From: Oceanispirochaeta crateris
GTDB lineage: Bacteria > Spirochaetota > Spirochaetia > DSM-2461
Direction: 5' to 3'
Length of the DNA: 64,000 nucleotides
Assembly: GCF_008329965.1 (NCBI RefSeq)
Contig: NZ_CP036150.1
Coordinates: 868,001 to 932,000 of the forward strand
Positions 54,310-60,826 of this stretch are shown here, piece after piece. The notes beneath the pieces are model-generated. The model was not told the DNA's origin. It searched no databases and was given only the letters and a program-made list of their open reading frames with translations. Within the stretch, counting starts at the first letter, position 1. Each line of letters begins with the position of its first letter. Both the position numbers and the translations under genes were made by a program.

Positions 54310-54393
54310 GCCGGTGTGGTGGAATTGGTAGACACCCGAGACTTAAAATCTCGTGGGCGCAAGCCCGTACCGGTTCAAGTCCGGTCACCGGCA
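54310..54393 (+). tRNA. tRNA-Leu (anticodon UAA)
   Basis: The acceptor stem GCCGGTG/CACCGGC, a long variable arm (TGGGCGCAAGCCCG) and the anticodon loop CTTAAAA give anticodon TAA, decoding UUA. The CCA end is not encoded. Confidence 0.96.
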
Positions 54394-54403
54394 CAAACTT
54401 GAA

Positions 54404-54438
54404 AAGGCTGATTTGCGAATAGCAGATCAGCCTTTTTT
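54404..54438 (+). terminator. Intrinsic terminator after tRNA-Leu
   Basis: AGGCTGAT/ATCAGCCT arms with an inner TGC/GCA pair close a small loop, followed by seven T. Confidence 0.87.
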
Positions 54439-54728
54439 TATGTTCTCATTTACGACAAAAGTATTGGTAAAGGTTTTTAGTATTCAAAAATCTTCCATAT
54501 GAAATAGCCCTGCAGATTATGAAATCTTAGAAATCAGCACTATGTTTGCACATACTGCTGATAAATGAGACTTGACTGGTTGTGGATCAGGGATGTTTCC
54601 TAACACTTTTTGTCAAATCATCTTTGAATTTTTTGATCATGATTAATAATAGCGCACAAGGTTAATTGCGCTAAGCGCTACTATTTTTGAATAAGCCCAT
54701 GAGTAAGCTGGAAGGTATCCAAGCCCTT
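54439..54728. other. Intergenic region after tRNA-Leu
   Basis: I see no gene here. It is AT-rich and contains short palindromes around 54650-54690 (GCGCTAAGCGC). It marks the transition from the core to the RHS region. Confidence 0.5.
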
Positions 54729-54954
54729 TCCGTTGCCAGAGAGTCTACAATAAGTACGGCAACGGTACGGAAACCAACTATATCTATGATGAAAACCACT
54801 GCTGGCTAAGCAAAATCAAAACATCTCTAACACTTCCGGTGACTTCTACCAGATCACCTCGGCAGTAGGAAACTACGACTATCACAACGGCGGAGGAGTA
54901 GTAACCCGGGACAGTTCATATACGCCAACCTTTTCTTATGATAAAATAGAAAAC
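54729..54954 (+). pseudogene. Degraded 5' part of an RHS-repeat gene
   Basis: YD-repeat-like coding is readable in pieces: NYIYDENHCWLSKIK in one frame, then, after a shift near 54815-54830, NTSGDFYQITSAVGNYDY leading in frame into the gene at 54955. A frameshift and loss of the upstream part mean that most of the RHS protein is gone. Confidence 0.65.
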
Positions 54955-56148
54955 ATGTTGATCAAGCTAAGCAGCAAAGACAGCAGCAGCTCGGGCCTGA
55001 GCACCCTCGACTACAACAACACCTTCTCCTACTATGCCGACGCCCCTCACAGGGTAGAAGTCATAGCTAACAAGTACTATCGCTACGACCTTAACGGCAA
55101 CCTGGAAGAAACCTTCTTCTTCGACAGCATGTGGAGCGTCTGCGGCACAGAATCAACTGACGGCCTCAGTCAGAGCAAGAACATCTACGTGGGAGAAACC
55201 AGGATATCCACCAAGCTGAACTTCCCGGAAAGCGACCTAGGCTACGAGACACTGAACACTTACTACTATCACACGGTCCACCAGTTGTCATCGAATGTGG
55301 TAACAGATCCTGACGGTGAGGTCTACGAACACCTGGAGTACACCCCATACGGTGAGATGTGGGTGGAAGACCAGACAACGGAAGACCTTGATAAGATTCC
55401 CTACGGCTTTACAGGCAAGGAGTGGGATGAAGAGACGAACCTCTATTACATGTCTGCAAGGTATCAGGATCCCATGACGAGCAGGTGGATTTCGGCAGAT
55501 CCGGCTGGGGCTAAGCTTGTTAATCCGAATAGCAGCCAGTTTATATTAATCGGTTCAATCAACTGGTATAGCTATACTGAAAACAATCCCCTTAAGTATT
55601 TAGATCCGACGGGTTTTAAGCCAGTTAATTTCAATACAAATACAATGCAGAGTTTCACTGGAAATATTCCTAATACTACAACTCCTTTCGGAAAGGAAGG
55701 ATGTACATTTTCTGGTATGTCAGGTGTCGTTGATGATTATCGAGCTAAAAATGGTCTTGAGAAAATTGACTGGCAGGATAAACTTGATAGCGATAAAATG
55801 AATGATTATTTCGACGATGACGGAAAATTGAAGAGGGATAAGTTCCTTAAAGATTTTACAGATGATGGTTTAGCGGTACTGGAAGACACACGGGATACAG
55901 GTAATGATTCTTCCAAAGTTATCGATGATGCTGTTAAGGATGAGGACAATGACTTTTATCTTTTAGGACGAGGTGATATTACCAAGGGACCTGGTAAGGG
56001 TGGAGAGCATGAAATCGGTATCTCTGGAGTAACGGGTAGTGATATTAACCAGATAGATACTAGTGATAATGATCAATACCGAAACTACACAACAGATGGG
56101 CAGAACAAAATTGATCGAGTTATAAAGATTGGGGAGAAGGAAGAATGA
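54955..56148 (+). CDS. RHS core end with variable C-terminal domain (module 1)
   Basis: The product has 397 residues. Residues 1-195 are the RHS repeat-associated core: SSNVVTDPDGEVYEHLEYTP, the GFTGKEWDEETNLYYMSARYQ signature and SRWISADPAG. The rest is a variable C-terminal domain, Cys250 (EGCTFSGMSG) and His352 (GGEHEIG) suggesting a papain-like or C39-like fold; this is an inference. Relative to module 2 the core lacks 84 residues. No ribosome site precedes ATG 54955; coding may continue upstream in the decayed part. It overlaps the next gene by 4 bases. Confidence 0.75.
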   Translation: MLIKLSSKDSSSSGLSTLDYNNTFSYYADAPHRVEVIANKYYRYDLNGNLEETFFFDSMWSVCGTESTDGLSQSKNIYVGETRISTKLNFPESDLGYETLNTYYYHTVHQLSSNVVTDPDGEVYEHLEYTPYGEMWVEDQTTEDLDKIPYGFTGKEWDEETNLYYMSARYQDPMTSRWISADPAGAKLVNPNSSQFILIGSINWYSYTENNPLKYLDPTGFKPVNFNTNTMQSFTGNIPNTTTPFGKEGCTFSGMSGVVDDYRAKNGLEKIDWQDKLDSDKMNDYFDDDGKLKRDKFLKDFTDDGLAVLEDTRDTGNDSSKVIDDAVKDEDNDFYLLGRGDITKGPGKGGEHEIGISGVTGSDINQIDTSDNDQYRNYTTDGQNKIDRVIKIGEKEE

Positions 56149-56738
56149 GACTGATATTATTCCTTTTGTTTACGACATCATGCCTGTTTGCAGAATCTGT
56201 TGTTGAGTTGACATTGATAGATCATGATCGCGGCTTTTCGATTAACTATTATGACTCGCCAAACAAGGTATTAGAGAGTCTTGGTTCTGAAAGTAATTTT
56301 CTTTCAGAAGGCCAGACGAGAGGATGGTTTACCAATAAAGGTGATGGTTTTGAATTAAAAACGCTAGTTCTACCAAGTAAATATCCTATTAGAGGGAAAA
56401 CTATTAGTCTTTATGAGATTCATTACTTGAAGATAACGAAGAGGTTTAGAACATTTAGAGATATTGGGATCGGATCAAGCGTAAAAGAAGTGGCTATGGC
56501 CTATCCTAATGCTATATTCTATATTCCTGGAGAGAAATATTGGCAGGATGAGTTCTGGACATTTGAAGATGGAAAGGCTACTCCCAAAGGACTAACCGCT
56601 GCTATCTATTGGGATTTTGGAACAAGTAAGCGTCCTGCAGACCTCTCAGGAGACCTTGAATACGGTTTTAGCTTCCGGTTTAATGATTCAGGATATGTAA
56701 ATGAGATTGAAATGGGGAATATTGTTACCGAAAAGTAA
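56145..56738 (+). CDS. Putative periplasmic immunity lipoprotein of module 1
   Basis: The product has 197 residues. The N-terminus RLILFLLFTTSCLFAES has a signal with a possible lipobox (TTSC). The mature part has no recognised domain. Its start overlaps the RHS stop (ATGA), and it precedes the palindrome, the usual position of an immunity gene for an RHS tip. The signal SC(L)FAES is shared with the gene at 58759. Confidence 0.65.
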   Translation: MRLILFLLFTTSCLFAESVVELTLIDHDRGFSINYYDSPNKVLESLGSESNFLSEGQTRGWFTNKGDGFELKTLVLPSKYPIRGKTISLYEIHYLKITKRFRTFRDIGIGSSVKEVAMAYPNAIFYIPGEKYWQDEFWTFEDGKATPKGLTAAIYWDFGTSKRPADLSGDLEYGFSFRFNDSGYVNEIEMGNIVTEK

Positions 56739-56746
56739 TTATACAT

Positions 56747-56827
56747 CCATAAGAACCTGTTAACCTGCGCCCGAGACAACCTGCTTCACAATCTGAGTGG
56801 GCGTCAGGTTCAACATACTTCTTATGG
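56747..56827. repeat. Imperfect palindrome after module 1 (attC-like architecture)
   Basis: Outer arms CCATAAGAA (56747-56755) and TTCTTATGG (56819-56827), a spacer, then inner arms GTTAACCTGCGCCC (56759-56772) and GGGCGTCAGGTTCAAC (56799-56814) with two unpaired bases. A similar copy follows module 2. Confidence 0.7.
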
Positions 56828-57266
56828 TTCTCCATTTCATTTCTGCCGGAATGAAGTTAATGGATGATCGTAGTAAGATGTCTGCAGCGGTCAGTCCTTC
56901 GGCATGCAAATGAGACCGGTATTATATTGATATCATAGCGAAGGACATAAAAAGGGCAATTGTAACGGGAGAGTCCACCCCCATTAACGAACACCCAGCC
57001 CTCACAGGACAAAAAGGAACAGTAGGGGAGCCGAAGGCTGACCCCGCAGGAGCGAAGCTCCGAGGAGTCCTGGCCCCGAATGGTCCGACCCCACACCACG
57101 AGGTCTGGCATTTCCCGACCCGCGGACAAAGCCGAACAGGATGGAGGGGGACGGCGCCGGCGAGTTTCGCAGCACCGCAGGTGCGAGGACCTGTTTGAGC
57201 AAGGTGCTGTTCCCGTCCGATCCTGCTCATGATAAACTGTGTGGGGATTTTGCCAGAAGGAGAAAC
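56828..57266. other. GC-rich hairpin block upstream of module 2
   Basis: No gene is supported. From about 57020 to 57230 the DNA is far more GC-rich than its surroundings and holds tight hairpins: GCCGAAGGC (57030-57038), GGAGCGAAGCTCC (57049-57061) and GCACCGCAGGTGC (57172-57184). It replaces the 5' RHS sequence in module 2. Confidence 0.65.
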
Positions 57267-58778
57267 ATGTTGACCAAGCTAAGCAGCGAAGACACCAGCA
57301 GCTCCGGCCTGAGCAGCCTCGACTACGACAACTTCTACTCCTACTACGCCGACGCTCCTCACAGGGTAGAAGTCATAGGCAACAAGTACTACCGCTACGA
57401 CCTTAACGGCAACCTGGAAGAAGAAAGGGTAGGAGGCCACAGAAGCCTCCAGGACTACGACCAGGCCGAATACAACTTCAGAGACAACGTCACGGTAGCC
57501 AACCAGGCCTTCGCCTGGGACATAGACGGCGGAGATGACGATGACGTCTACAGCCGCCAGTTCGAATGGGATGAAGAGAACCGCCTGAAAGCGACGGTAG
57601 ACCCCAACCACTGGACCGTCTACCGCTACGACCAGGACGGAGAAAGAACCCTCAAGTACTCAGACCTGGGAGAAACCCTCTACTTCGACAGCATGTGGAG
57701 CGTCTGTGACACCGAATCAACGGACGGCCTGAGGCAAAGCAAAAACATCTACGTGGGAGAAACCAGGATAGCCACCAAGCTGAACTTCCCGGACAGCGAC
57801 CTGGGCTACGAGAAACTGAATACCTACTACTACCACACGGACCACTTATCGTCATCGAATGTGGTAACCGACCCGGACGGAGAGGTCTACGAACACCTGG
57901 AATACACCCCATACGGTGAGATGTGGATTGAGGATCAGAAGGCTGAAAACCTGGACAAGATCCCCTTCCGTTTTACCTCCAAAGAGTGGGATGAAGAGAC
58001 TGGGCTTTATTACATGAGTGCCAGGTATCAGAATCCGATGACAAGCCGGTGGATTAGTGCTGACCCGGCGGGGTTCGGGTTGGTTAATCCTATGGGGGAT
58101 AAGGGGAATCTGAAGAGTGGGTTCTCTGTGATAGAGAATGTAAATTGGTATAGTTACTCATCAAATAATCCTTTAAGATATGTAGATCCAAGTGGCCTTG
58201 ATGATGTTGATGCAATTACTGGTGCACAACCTTCTTCCTCTTCGAAACCTGAATGGTTGGATAATAAGGCTATCAATCAACAACTTTATCAAACTAATAT
58301 GGAGAATGATTTTTCTGATAAAATGAAGGATTTAAGAGGTACGCCTTATGACTTAGGAGGGAATAGTACTGATGGAACAGATTGTAGTGGATCAGTTTTA
58401 TTAGCTTTAGAGCAAATGGGATTTGACACCGGGGATATGACTGCAAATACTATGGCTAGCGGCGATGTTCCTTGGATAGAGATATTAGATCCAAAGTCGT
58501 CAGTTGATCAGGGAACTCCTGGGATTTTGAATTTTTATTCCTGGGGTAAAAAGAAAATCCAGCATGTTAATGCCGGAGTCGGTTCCACGGTTAATGAAAC
58601 AAACACGCAAGTTATTGATGCAACAGAAGGTGATTGGATGACGGCACGAAATGGCAATACAAACCAAATCTATCCTGCACAAGCAGGCTCTATAAATCAA
58701 ACTTATGTACCTTATTCGACACGCACAAAACCTGATATTCAAGGAAGGATTAACTTTAATGCAATACCAAGAAAATAG
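57267..58778 (+). CDS. RHS core end with NlpC/P60 C-terminal domain (module 2)
   Basis: The product has 503 residues. The RHS core (about residues 1-280) includes SSNVVTDPDGEVYEHLEYTP and the FTSKEWDEETGLYYMSARYQ signature. The C-terminal domain has the NlpC/P60 motif GTPYDLGG-x6-DCSG with Cys373 and a downstream HVNAG with His433, so it is a probable peptidoglycan endopeptidase toxin. ATG at 57267 is preferred since AAGGAG lies five bases upstream and similarity to module 1 starts there. Base composition falls sharply from the GC-rich core to the AT-rich tip. Confidence 0.85.
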   Translation: MLTKLSSEDTSSSGLSSLDYDNFYSYYADAPHRVEVIGNKYYRYDLNGNLEEERVGGHRSLQDYDQAEYNFRDNVTVANQAFAWDIDGGDDDDVYSRQFEWDEENRLKATVDPNHWTVYRYDQDGERTLKYSDLGETLYFDSMWSVCDTESTDGLRQSKNIYVGETRIATKLNFPDSDLGYEKLNTYYYHTDHLSSSNVVTDPDGEVYEHLEYTPYGEMWIEDQKAENLDKIPFRFTSKEWDEETGLYYMSARYQNPMTSRWISADPAGFGLVNPMGDKGNLKSGFSVIENVNWYSYSSNNPLRYVDPSGLDDVDAITGAQPSSSSKPEWLDNKAINQQLYQTNMENDFSDKMKDLRGTPYDLGGNSTDGTDCSGSVLLALEQMGFDTGDMTANTMASGDVPWIEILDPKSSVDQGTPGILNFYSWGKKKIQHVNAGVGSTVNETNTQVIDATEGDWMTARNGNTNQIYPAQAGSINQTYVPYSTRTKPDIQGRINFNAIPRK

Positions 58779-59307
58779 ATATTTTAAAAGAATTATCTTA
58801 CTTTTATTACTTACATTACTTGTTTCTAGTTGTTTTGCTGAGTCAACTATTGGATTTTATACAAATGAATTAAGCTCAGAGAATTATAAGATAGTTGATG
58901 TTCTTTTTTGGGATTGGTTCCCTCAAAAAAAAGAGGTAGAAGATAACTACGATTCAGTGCAATTCTATTATAAGTCGAATAGAACTTATAAAGACTATTC
59001 TGGTACTGAAAAGGAGCTAGTTTTAGTTGGGTATTTAGTAGGTGTAAAAAATGAGACAAGATTTATTCTTGCAAAATATACTCCTACGGCTGTTTATGAT
59101 GCAAATGGTAATACATTATCAGAAATACCAGAAACTTCGAAAATCTATAAAAGTATTATTGGATTGAATGGTGATATTTTAGAAGATCCAACAGCAGTAG
59201 CTCCAGTTATTGATAAGAATGGCGAAACAGAAGTGGATTCTTTTGCACTTTTGGAGTTTGATTTTGCGAATAATACAATGGTTAAGTATATTATTCAATT
59301 AGATTAA
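58759..59307 (+). CDS. Putative immunity lipoprotein of module 2
   Basis: The product has 182 residues. The signal RIILLLLLTLLVSSC ends in a lipobox, so it should sit in the periplasmic space, where an NlpC/P60 toxin would act. Its ATG at 58759 lies 20 bases inside the end of the RHS gene. The mature part is strand-rich and unrelated to the module 1 partner apart from the signal. The immunity role is inferred from position. Confidence 0.65.
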   Translation: MQYQENRYFKRIILLLLLTLLVSSCFAESTIGFYTNELSSENYKIVDVLFWDWFPQKKEVEDNYDSVQFYYKSNRTYKDYSGTEKELVLVGYLVGVKNETRFILAKYTPTAVYDANGNTLSEIPETSKIYKSIIGLNGDILEDPTAVAPVIDKNGETEVDSFALLEFDFANNTMVKYIIQLD

Positions 59308-59319
59308 AAATGGATTCCC

Positions 59320-59399
59320 CATAACCATGTGTTAACCTGCGCCCGATAACTTCCTGCTTCACAACCGGAGAGGGTGACAGGTTCAACAAACTCGTTATG
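59320..59399. repeat. Imperfect palindrome after module 2 (second copy)
   Basis: Outer arms CATAAC (59320-59325) and GTTATG (59394-59399), inner arms GTTAACCTGCGCCC (59331-59344) and GGGTGACAGGTTCAAC (59372-59387). The outer pair differs from copy 1 by a compensatory change (G-C to C-G), evidence that the fold matters. Confidence 0.7.
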
Positions 59400-59504
59400 A
59401 ATCTTCTTTTATTAATCATAATAATCACCGGAGGGCAGTCAAACTTAAAGCATAAAACCCAATCCACCCCCTACCAAAAAGGGATGCACAGGGCCGCGAA
59501 GCAG

Positions 59505-59541
59505 TGTAATCCCCCCCATTTATAGAGGGCGTCATATGTAG
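59505..59541. repeat. IS3-family left inverted repeat
   Basis: TGTAATCCCCCC, then a variable part, ending CATATGTAG. It matches the right repeat at 60666-60702 in reverse complement. Confidence 0.85.
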
Positions 59542-59547
59542 AGCTTC

Positions 59548-60372
59548 TTAAGCTACCGGATTTTTCATTCTCGGTGGAATGCCGCCAATAGCTGAATTAG
59601 GACGCTCGTTATTATATGTCCATAACCAATCTGTAGCAAGTTTTTGAGCATGTTCAATTGATTCAAAATTGATCAAATCCAGCCATTCATGCCGAACCGT
59701 CCTGTTAAATCTTTCAATATAAGCATTCTGAGTCGGCTTTCCTGGCTGTATGAATATCAAATCAATTCCTTTATTTTCAGCCCAATTCTGTAATGCACCG
59801 CTACAATACTCTGGACCATTATCGCATCGGATAGCCAGTGGCTTTTCTCGCCACTCCAGAAGCTGATCAAGGGATCGAACAACTCTTAATGAAGGTAATG
59901 ACAGGTCAACGTCAATGGCCAATCCCTCGCGATTATAGTCATCAATGACATTGAATGTCCGGAATGATCTACCATCCGATAATGTATCAGTCATAAAATC
60001 CATTGACCAAACTTGATCAGGTCTGGAAGGAACGTCCAGAGCATCTGGCTTATCACGTTTCAGCCGTTTCCGTGGTTTAATTCTCAGATTCAATTCCAAT
60101 TCACGGTAGATCCGATAAACACGTTTATGATTCCAAGGATACTTCTTCACGTTCCTCAAATACAGAAAACAAAGACCGAAACCCCATCGTTTATAGGTCG
60201 TGGTTAATCGTAGCAGCCAGTCAGCGATAAGCTCATTCTCTGATCACATTTTAGGCTCATATCGGTAGCATGTTTCGCTGATTTTGAATGCTTTACACGC
60301 CAGATTAATCGTTATATCCTGGTGCTGTACATAAAACTGGGTCATCTCTTTGCGTTGAGATGGCTTTACCAC
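59548..60372 (-). pseudogene. IS3-family transposase orfB (integrase core), interrupted
   Basis: The rve integrase core has its DDE residues: WSMDFM (Asp), IRCDNGPEY (Asp) and [12 protein letters not shown] (Glu). The upstream part, entered from the A7G frameshift site, is broken by TGA at 60244-60246 (YEPKM then stop), so full-length transposase would not be made. Confidence 0.85.
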
Positions 60373-60631
60373 TTTTTTTCTAATGCATCCTGTACAATTT
60401 CTGCTTTCAGACGTTCTTCAGCATACATCTTCTTAAGTCTGGCATTTTCTGATTCCAGTTCCTTCATTCTGGAAAGAAGGGATATATCCATGCCTCCATA
60501 TTTGGATCGCCACCGGTAAAAAGTGCCGAACTGATATTGTTATCCCTGCAAATCTCAGTTACAGGTACACCACTTTCTGCTTTTTTCAGAATAGCCATTA
60601 TCTGGCTGTCTGAAAATCTTGATTTCTTCAT
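60366..60631 (-). pseudogene. IS3-family transposase orfA, frameshifted
   Basis: MKKSRFSDSQIMAILKKAES at the N-terminus is the IS3 orfA helix-turn-helix. A single-base loss near 60527 shifts the frame; the C-terminal FYRWRSKYGGMD and leucine-zipper part (ESENARLKKMYAEERLK) is in another frame. AAGGAG precedes the ATG. Confidence 0.8.
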
Positions 60632-60665
60632 GTAGAAACTCCTTCAAATAGAATAAAGATTATTT

Positions 60666-60702
60666 CTACATATGGCGACCACTAATTTTCGGGGGGATTA
60701 CA
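60666..60702. repeat. IS3-family right inverted repeat
   Basis: Reverse complement of the left end: CTACATATGGCG to GGGGGGATTACA. It interrupts the GNAT remnant. Confidence 0.85.
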
Positions 60703-60826
60703 CTTCTTCAAGATACTGTGCCATCGTTTTCTTATTATTCATTAAATAGAAAGTATCATAATAAGTTTGACGGCCCATGTTTATCACTTCTTCCAAATCA
60801 GATAGATTTCATTTTCGAATCTCCAT
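60703..60826 (-). pseudogene. 5' remnant of a GNAT acetyltransferase interrupted by the IS
   Basis: MEIRK then an in-frame stop, then NLSDLEEVINMGRQTYYDTF, NNKKTMAQYLEE resembles the start of a GNAT-family acetyltransferase. The IS end follows directly, and no matching 3' part is seen on the other side of the IS. Confidence 0.6.

Follow-up and report, generated by a model that had tools for sequence, protein, structure and literature searches.

RHS tip-immunity modules ending in probable attC-family hairpins, and their probable past movement as integron cassettes, in the spirochaete Oceanispirochaeta crateris

Background

Displaced rhs tips, in which the end of an RHS core is followed by a variable tip and a small partner gene, in tandem, have been described before (Jackson et al. 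2009, PMC2935791), and the locus of Oceanispirochaeta crateris presented here has the same make-up. It differs in that the genome lacks a full-length rhs gene and in that each module ends in a hairpin that very probably belongs to the attC family. A second comparable system is formed by the integron arrays of Treponema and the clusters without intI (PMC3607928). These share with the present locus the attC hairpin, the R and L boxes and a protruding base, as well as sites left without intI nearby; T. denticola likewise possesses sites without the AAC triplet. Here, however, the cargo consists of a truncated RHS core, a tip and a candidate immunity gene, and the sites are shorter than the array attCs of the family itself and often antisense or provided with CTTATG. 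Thirdly, sequential displacement resulting in strings of immunity genes is also seen in the Type VI effector-immunity arrays of Vibrio cholerae (PMC5361080), but an attC-type site is present here, whereas the authors report no evidence of an integrase for the Vibrio arrays. According to Jackson 2009 (PMC2935791) and Kirchberger 2017 (PMC5361080), the integron is the obvious precedent, and no integrase is known for such modules. A search of the open literature, subscription papers lying outside it, retrieved nothing that joins orphan rhs genes, integrons and attC sites; polymorphic toxins combined with integron or attC returned only an unrelated review.

Results and discussion

Two tandem RHS modules with candidate immunity genes

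The window, which is the whole stretch of 64,000 nucleotides analysed (C1, 868,001-932,000, on one 4.01-Mb contig), contained two modules on the forward strand between 54,737 and 59,399 (window positions), with the following features:

54737..55626, +, RHS core end of module 1, decayed (tblastn with the full-length RHS of genome G010; core alignment; Rhs_assc_core)
55627..56148, +, variable tip of module 1 (no Pfam match)
56145..56738, +, partner gene of module 1, coding for a probably exported protein of 197 amino acids, candidate immunity protein (overlap with the tip ORF)
57261..58208, +, RHS core end of module 2 (core alignment, Rhs_assc_core, tblastn)
58209..58778, +, tip of module 2, with a NlpC/P60 peptidase-like domain at about 58338-58628 (PF00877)
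58759..59307, +, partner gene of module 2, whose product is a candidate immunity protein and probably a lipoprotein (VSSC within its signal sequence, by eye)

As an earlier note on this DNA had described, the order of RHS core end, variable tip, overlapping partner gene and palindrome occurs twice, in tandem. Both core ends matched Rhs_assc_core (TIGR03696; 73 bits for module 1 and 69 bits for module 2, cut-off 32.5), and the core comparison placed their relatives among the spirochaetes. The near identity ascribed to the two cores holds for stretches of 160 nt (91%) and 300 nt (87%), with a protein identity of 80%, but not for their condition. In module 1, the core has an open ORF only from 54955 onwards; the upstream pieces lie in a different frame, with about 40 residues gone (tblastn, full-length RHS of G010 as query), and the core alignment revealed an in-frame deletion of 84 residues. 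Module 1 is a decaying copy and not an intact twin of module 2, the core of which begins near 57261.

The tips and partners differ, as had been noted, no similarity being evident between the two tips or between the two partners. The tip of module 1 had no Pfam match and no relative across 393 genomes of the phylum. The tip of module 2 matched PF00877 (E 8e-6, 26.2 bits, cut-off 23), and the NlpC/P60 peptidase class attacks peptidoglycan; elsewhere in the family, modules have M23 or NlpC/P60 peptidase domains. Modelling by AlphaFold without relatives gave unusable models for both tips (pLDDT 32 and 38). The partner gene of module 1 starts with an ATG at 56145 and the tip stops at 56148, an overlap of 4 nt, and the partner gene of module 2 overlaps the tip ORF by 20 nt, counted from its likely start at 58759. 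Both partners had been taken for small lipoproteins. This description suits partner 2, in which a VSSC lipobox was found by eye with a sub-threshold LPAM_1 match only, but not partner 1, the start of which resembles a signal peptide without a convincing lipobox and for which a profile search gave no family match. A lipoprotein-like partner 2 and an exported-looking partner 1 would fit periplasmic immunity.

The core protein search and the TIGR03696 search of the genome retrieved no full-length RHS gene and only two Rhs_assc_core matches, both in the window modules. In relatives, full-length RHS genes code for about 1,700 to 3,500 residues. The full-length gene and the further orphans that the earlier note expected are absent, and the window modules are, since the genome has no full-length RHS gene, orphans without a parent. 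Their proposed identity as orphan RHS toxin/immunity cassettes agrees with the Rhs_assc_core match in each module, the NlpC/P60 domain of tip 2 and the exported-looking partners, but tip 1 has no recognisable relative. Homology supports an interpretation of the locus as two displaced RHS C-terminal tip and candidate immunity modules, in which the tips would be toxic and the partners would confer immunity. The leader at 56835-57275 is not repeated elsewhere in the genome, and no similar DNA was found on plasmids.

Palindromes with the structure of attC sites

The palindromes, described earlier as being of about 80 bp, are 79 and 80 nt long. Exact copies of the 16-mer GTTAACCTGCGCCCGA occur in the window only at both palindromes (2 versus 0.11 expected, <=3 mismatches), and the gapped palindrome motif was found nowhere else in the 4.0-Mb genome. 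Rfam matched only a tRNA over the region. Two covariance models were used, namely R1, built from four RHS-linked palindromes only (both window sites, one of G010 and one of genome G003), and R2, a refined model built from 33 hits that were mostly RHS-linked, the R1 search that yielded them being blind to RHS. The following sites were distinguished:

56748..56826, -, antisense to the RHS ORFs, probable attC-family site 1, boxes CATAAG/CTTATG (R1, R2, fold)
59320..59399, -, antisense to the RHS ORFs, probable attC-family site 2, boxes CATAAC/GTTATG (R1, R2)
56869..56926, +, possible degenerate second attC-like site, weak, sense (R2, 19.1 bits)

Site 1 and site 2 scored 88.9 and 77.0 bits with R1, of which both are training members. 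The R2 scores were higher on the reverse than on the forward strand (63.5 versus 36.1 bits for site 1 and 56.4 versus 29.5 bits for site 2), indicating that the ORF does not lie in attC orientation for either window site. The fold z-scores of the hairpins on the forward strand were -4.1 (site 1) and -2.1 (site 2). The hairpin consists of outer six-base R boxes (CATAAS/STTATG), an unpaired spacer and inner L boxes, with two extrahelical bases, 7 nt apart, in one arm. Longer hairpins beside the integron integrase (IntI) of this genome share these boxes and both bulges. The AAC/GTT triplets are present in site 2 and absent from site 1 and many relatives, where CTTATG stands instead of GTT. The weak site had an E-value of 0.35 in 170 kb and of 0.014 in 6.6 kb, and it occupies the position that the sense-oriented site takes in the composite tails of G003.

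Over 26 family genomes, R1 found 23 further sites. These include a member of this genome's IntI array (C1:2077426-2077533, E 5e-4) and a site 2.3 kb from IntI in genome G015. R2 found a string of 12 or more sites beside the IntI of genome G014, most of them spaced at 399 bp, as well as three sites in G004, two in G015 and a second cluster of seven or more in the genome studied here. The matches to IntI-array sites indicate that the attC family of this clade includes the window palindromes, a membership that we consider very probable and that had gone unrecognised when the recurring palindrome was proposed as a cassette boundary. A role as an RHS-only feature was rejected, since the same models find arrays beside IntI. 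A search with strict RYYYAAC/GTTRRRY attC boxes returned no array sites; the clade uses boxes of the CATAAC/GTTATG type.

Hairpin pairing is conserved by compensatory change. Indeed, across the 33 sites, 94% of the cells were paired versus 73.9% in shuffled controls, with 111 versus 29 double changes, in an alignment that was model-fitted, which somewhat favours pairing; slid controls were 19-44% paired.

The window copies themselves may be relics, both sites being antisense and site 1 being without GTT. Indeed, both copies look immobile, given the missing GTT of site 1, the decay of the weak sense site and the insertion sequence behind site 2. Within the window, the precise 5' limit of a cassette could not be located.

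Association of the sites with RHS modules across the family

Genome-wide R2 searches of the 26 family genomes gave 48 sites, 29 of which lie 0.8-3.6 kb downstream of an Rhs_assc_core end. Eleven other short sites had no RHS core on their contig, all 11 being located within 0.9 kb of a contig end. The remaining eight sites are long and of the array type (three beside IntI, two in a second cluster of this genome and three elsewhere). RHS-linked sites measure 52-85 nt and array attCs 97-114 nt, so that the former make up a distinct, shorter class. Wherever a site precedes an RHS core end (four cases), it also follows another RHS module. Hairpins start 0-30 nt past the stop codon of the candidate immunity gene, and the orientation is sense for 19 and antisense for 10 of the RHS-linked sites. 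In G003, G004, G010 and G011, a composite tail is found, consisting of an antisense site followed by a sense site within about 10-65 nt. The earlier note had named absence of the palindromes from other RHS loci as grounds against its reading; instead, members of the palindrome family were found behind RHS modules in 10 genomes, which represent four genera.

In three orphan modules (L107:5310, L108:7861 and L110:570), RHS core homology begins exactly at G|TTATTAC, which codes for two tyrosines. This start resembles the G|TT crossover of integrons and may be a cassette 5' boundary or due to chance. In genome G016, several contigs (L058, L059, L060) are broken at RHS core repeats and bear further orphan tips.

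Genomic surroundings

The two modules are flanked by the following features:

54310..54393, +, tRNA gene, Leu by its CTTAAAATC anticodon loop (Rfam tRNA, 58.1 bits)
59477..60730, -, IS3-like insertion just after site 2 (broken transposase ORFs, 66-nt imperfect terminal repeats; DDE-type ORF at 59548-60159)

In blastn comparisons, synteny with four congeners ends at window positions 54409-54518, right after the tRNA gene, where a variable island probably begins. G003 has a block of 2.8 kb between housekeeping genes, made up of an RHS module, its composite tail and two gene pairs resembling toxin-antitoxin pairs; its neighbours are a rluA-like gene and, on the miaB side, a LysM-type gene adjacent to miaB. 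This place is empty in the genome studied here and in G005, and is taken by an acyltransferase-like gene in G004 and G006. The exact cassette ends cannot be read at the empty miaB site because the intergenic flanks are too diverged.

Contig 4 of G010 (L054:1-16501, L053:9121-17604) carries a 9.8-kb element between the full-length RHS gene and the displaced tips. It contains genes for two tyrosine recombinases, a primase-like protein and ParA, and appears to be tandemly duplicated. The RHS frame restarts at '..FTGKEWDEE' right after a recombinase gene, as if the element attached in the RHS core end and brought a tip.

Integron integrase and signs of cassette movement

The genome codes for an IntI (C1:2,082,618-2,083,826; family match at C1:2,082,894-2,083,823; TIGR02249, 373.5 bits, cut-off 265), which was found in 15 of the 26 family genomes. 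In the draft assemblies G009 and G011, sites were present and IntI was not found. A search with RHS motifs retrieved no RHS tip in the IntI-proximal loci.

A second cluster (C1:448.9-458.5 kb; L124:4872-14552), with at least seven attC sites and no recognisable IntI adjoining, carries Fic, DUF262-like and PIN-like genes. A Fic-gene segment of 1,384 nt is 96.9% identical between the IntI array and this cluster, with both ends of the match falling within or at attC sites. This segment reads as evidence that cassettes were moved or copied within this genome, evidence that concerns other cassettes than the RHS modules.

Possible routes of tip exchange

The best single explanation, which we hold at about even confidence, is that IntI moved RHS tip-immunity modules via the attC-type hairpins. 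A core end, a tip, an immunity gene and an attC-type hairpin would together form an integron-like cassette. IntI, encoded elsewhere in the genome, would recombine the single-stranded hairpin, so that modules would be excised and inserted beside another such site, yielding strings of silent tips interspersed with toxin-antitoxin cassettes. Finally, RecA recombination via the repeated core end would furnish a full-length RHS gene with a new tip, a step without a target in this genome because no full-length RHS gene is present. We infer the action of IntI on RHS sites and the later steps from the modules themselves, the attC-type structure and conservation of the hairpins, the link of the site class with RHS 3' ends in four genera, the presence of IntI in the genome and the past movement there of another attC-bounded cassette. 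Several findings count against integron-mediated movement, namely the antisense position of both window sites and of 10 of the 29 RHS-linked sites family-wide, the CTTATG in place of the required GTT in site 1 and many relatives, the shorter class to which RHS-linked sites belong, the lack of RHS tips in IntI-proximal loci, the sites of G009 and G011 without IntI found, and the dominance of RHS-linked sites in the refinement of R2.

Loss of the GTT triplet from many sites and the antisense position of 10 of 29 would also be expected if the hairpins descended from attC sites and now served only as 3' ends of RHS-immunity transcripts, for stability or termination, with the modules moving by homologous recombination. 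The location of the hairpins 0-30 nt after the immunity stop codon and their strong compensatory pairing agree with this as well. However, a T-run is missing, hence they are no classical terminators, the extrahelical bases and unpaired spacer that have been kept are needless for a transcript hairpin, and hairpins occur in both orientations after RHS genes, with paired inverted copies in several loci; we regard this alternative as fairly unlikely, though a serious rival. A little less probable still, but likewise a serious rival, is C-terminal displacement by RecA alone, as in enterobacterial rhs genes (PMC2935791), the palindrome being a conserved 3' flank that acts as second homology arm. The repeated core ends with 87-91% identity and the long, variable core fragments of the window speak for it, but it leaves unexplained both an attC-type hairpin that displays covariation instead of conserved sequence and the presence of orphan modules in unrelated places that have no RHS gene. 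As to the 9.8-kb element of G010, with two tyrosine recombinases between RHS core and displaced tips, another recombinase or a transposon might move the tips, the hairpins being its ends or targets, and inverted hairpin pairs do resemble element ends. Yet, the window contains no such element, only one orphan tip of G010 has a hairpin, and the same site family makes ordinary arrays beside IntI, which renders this route very improbable.

That the modules end in hairpins of the integron attC type suggests a part for integrons in the shuffling of RHS toxin tips within this spirochaete group, a link for which the two earlier papers saw no evidence; the modules themselves have probably at one time been moved as integron cassettes. 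More tentatively, and with somewhat more doubt than belief, the RHS tip-immunity modules could be a dedicated class of integron-type cassettes, of which a short, RHS-specific attC subclass would let IntI collect, spread and reorder tips, so that an integron would be coupled to a contact-dependent weapon.

Conclusions

Ever since the displacement model was put forward, it has been asked how the tips of RHS and other polymorphic toxins can be exchanged while earlier tips are retained. With a conserved attC-type hairpin at the 3' ends of tip-immunity modules and IntI encoded in the same genomes, this question becomes directly testable by a standard integron recombination assay. If IntI does move these modules, secreted antibacterial toxins would join the toxin-antitoxin pairs already known as integron cargo.
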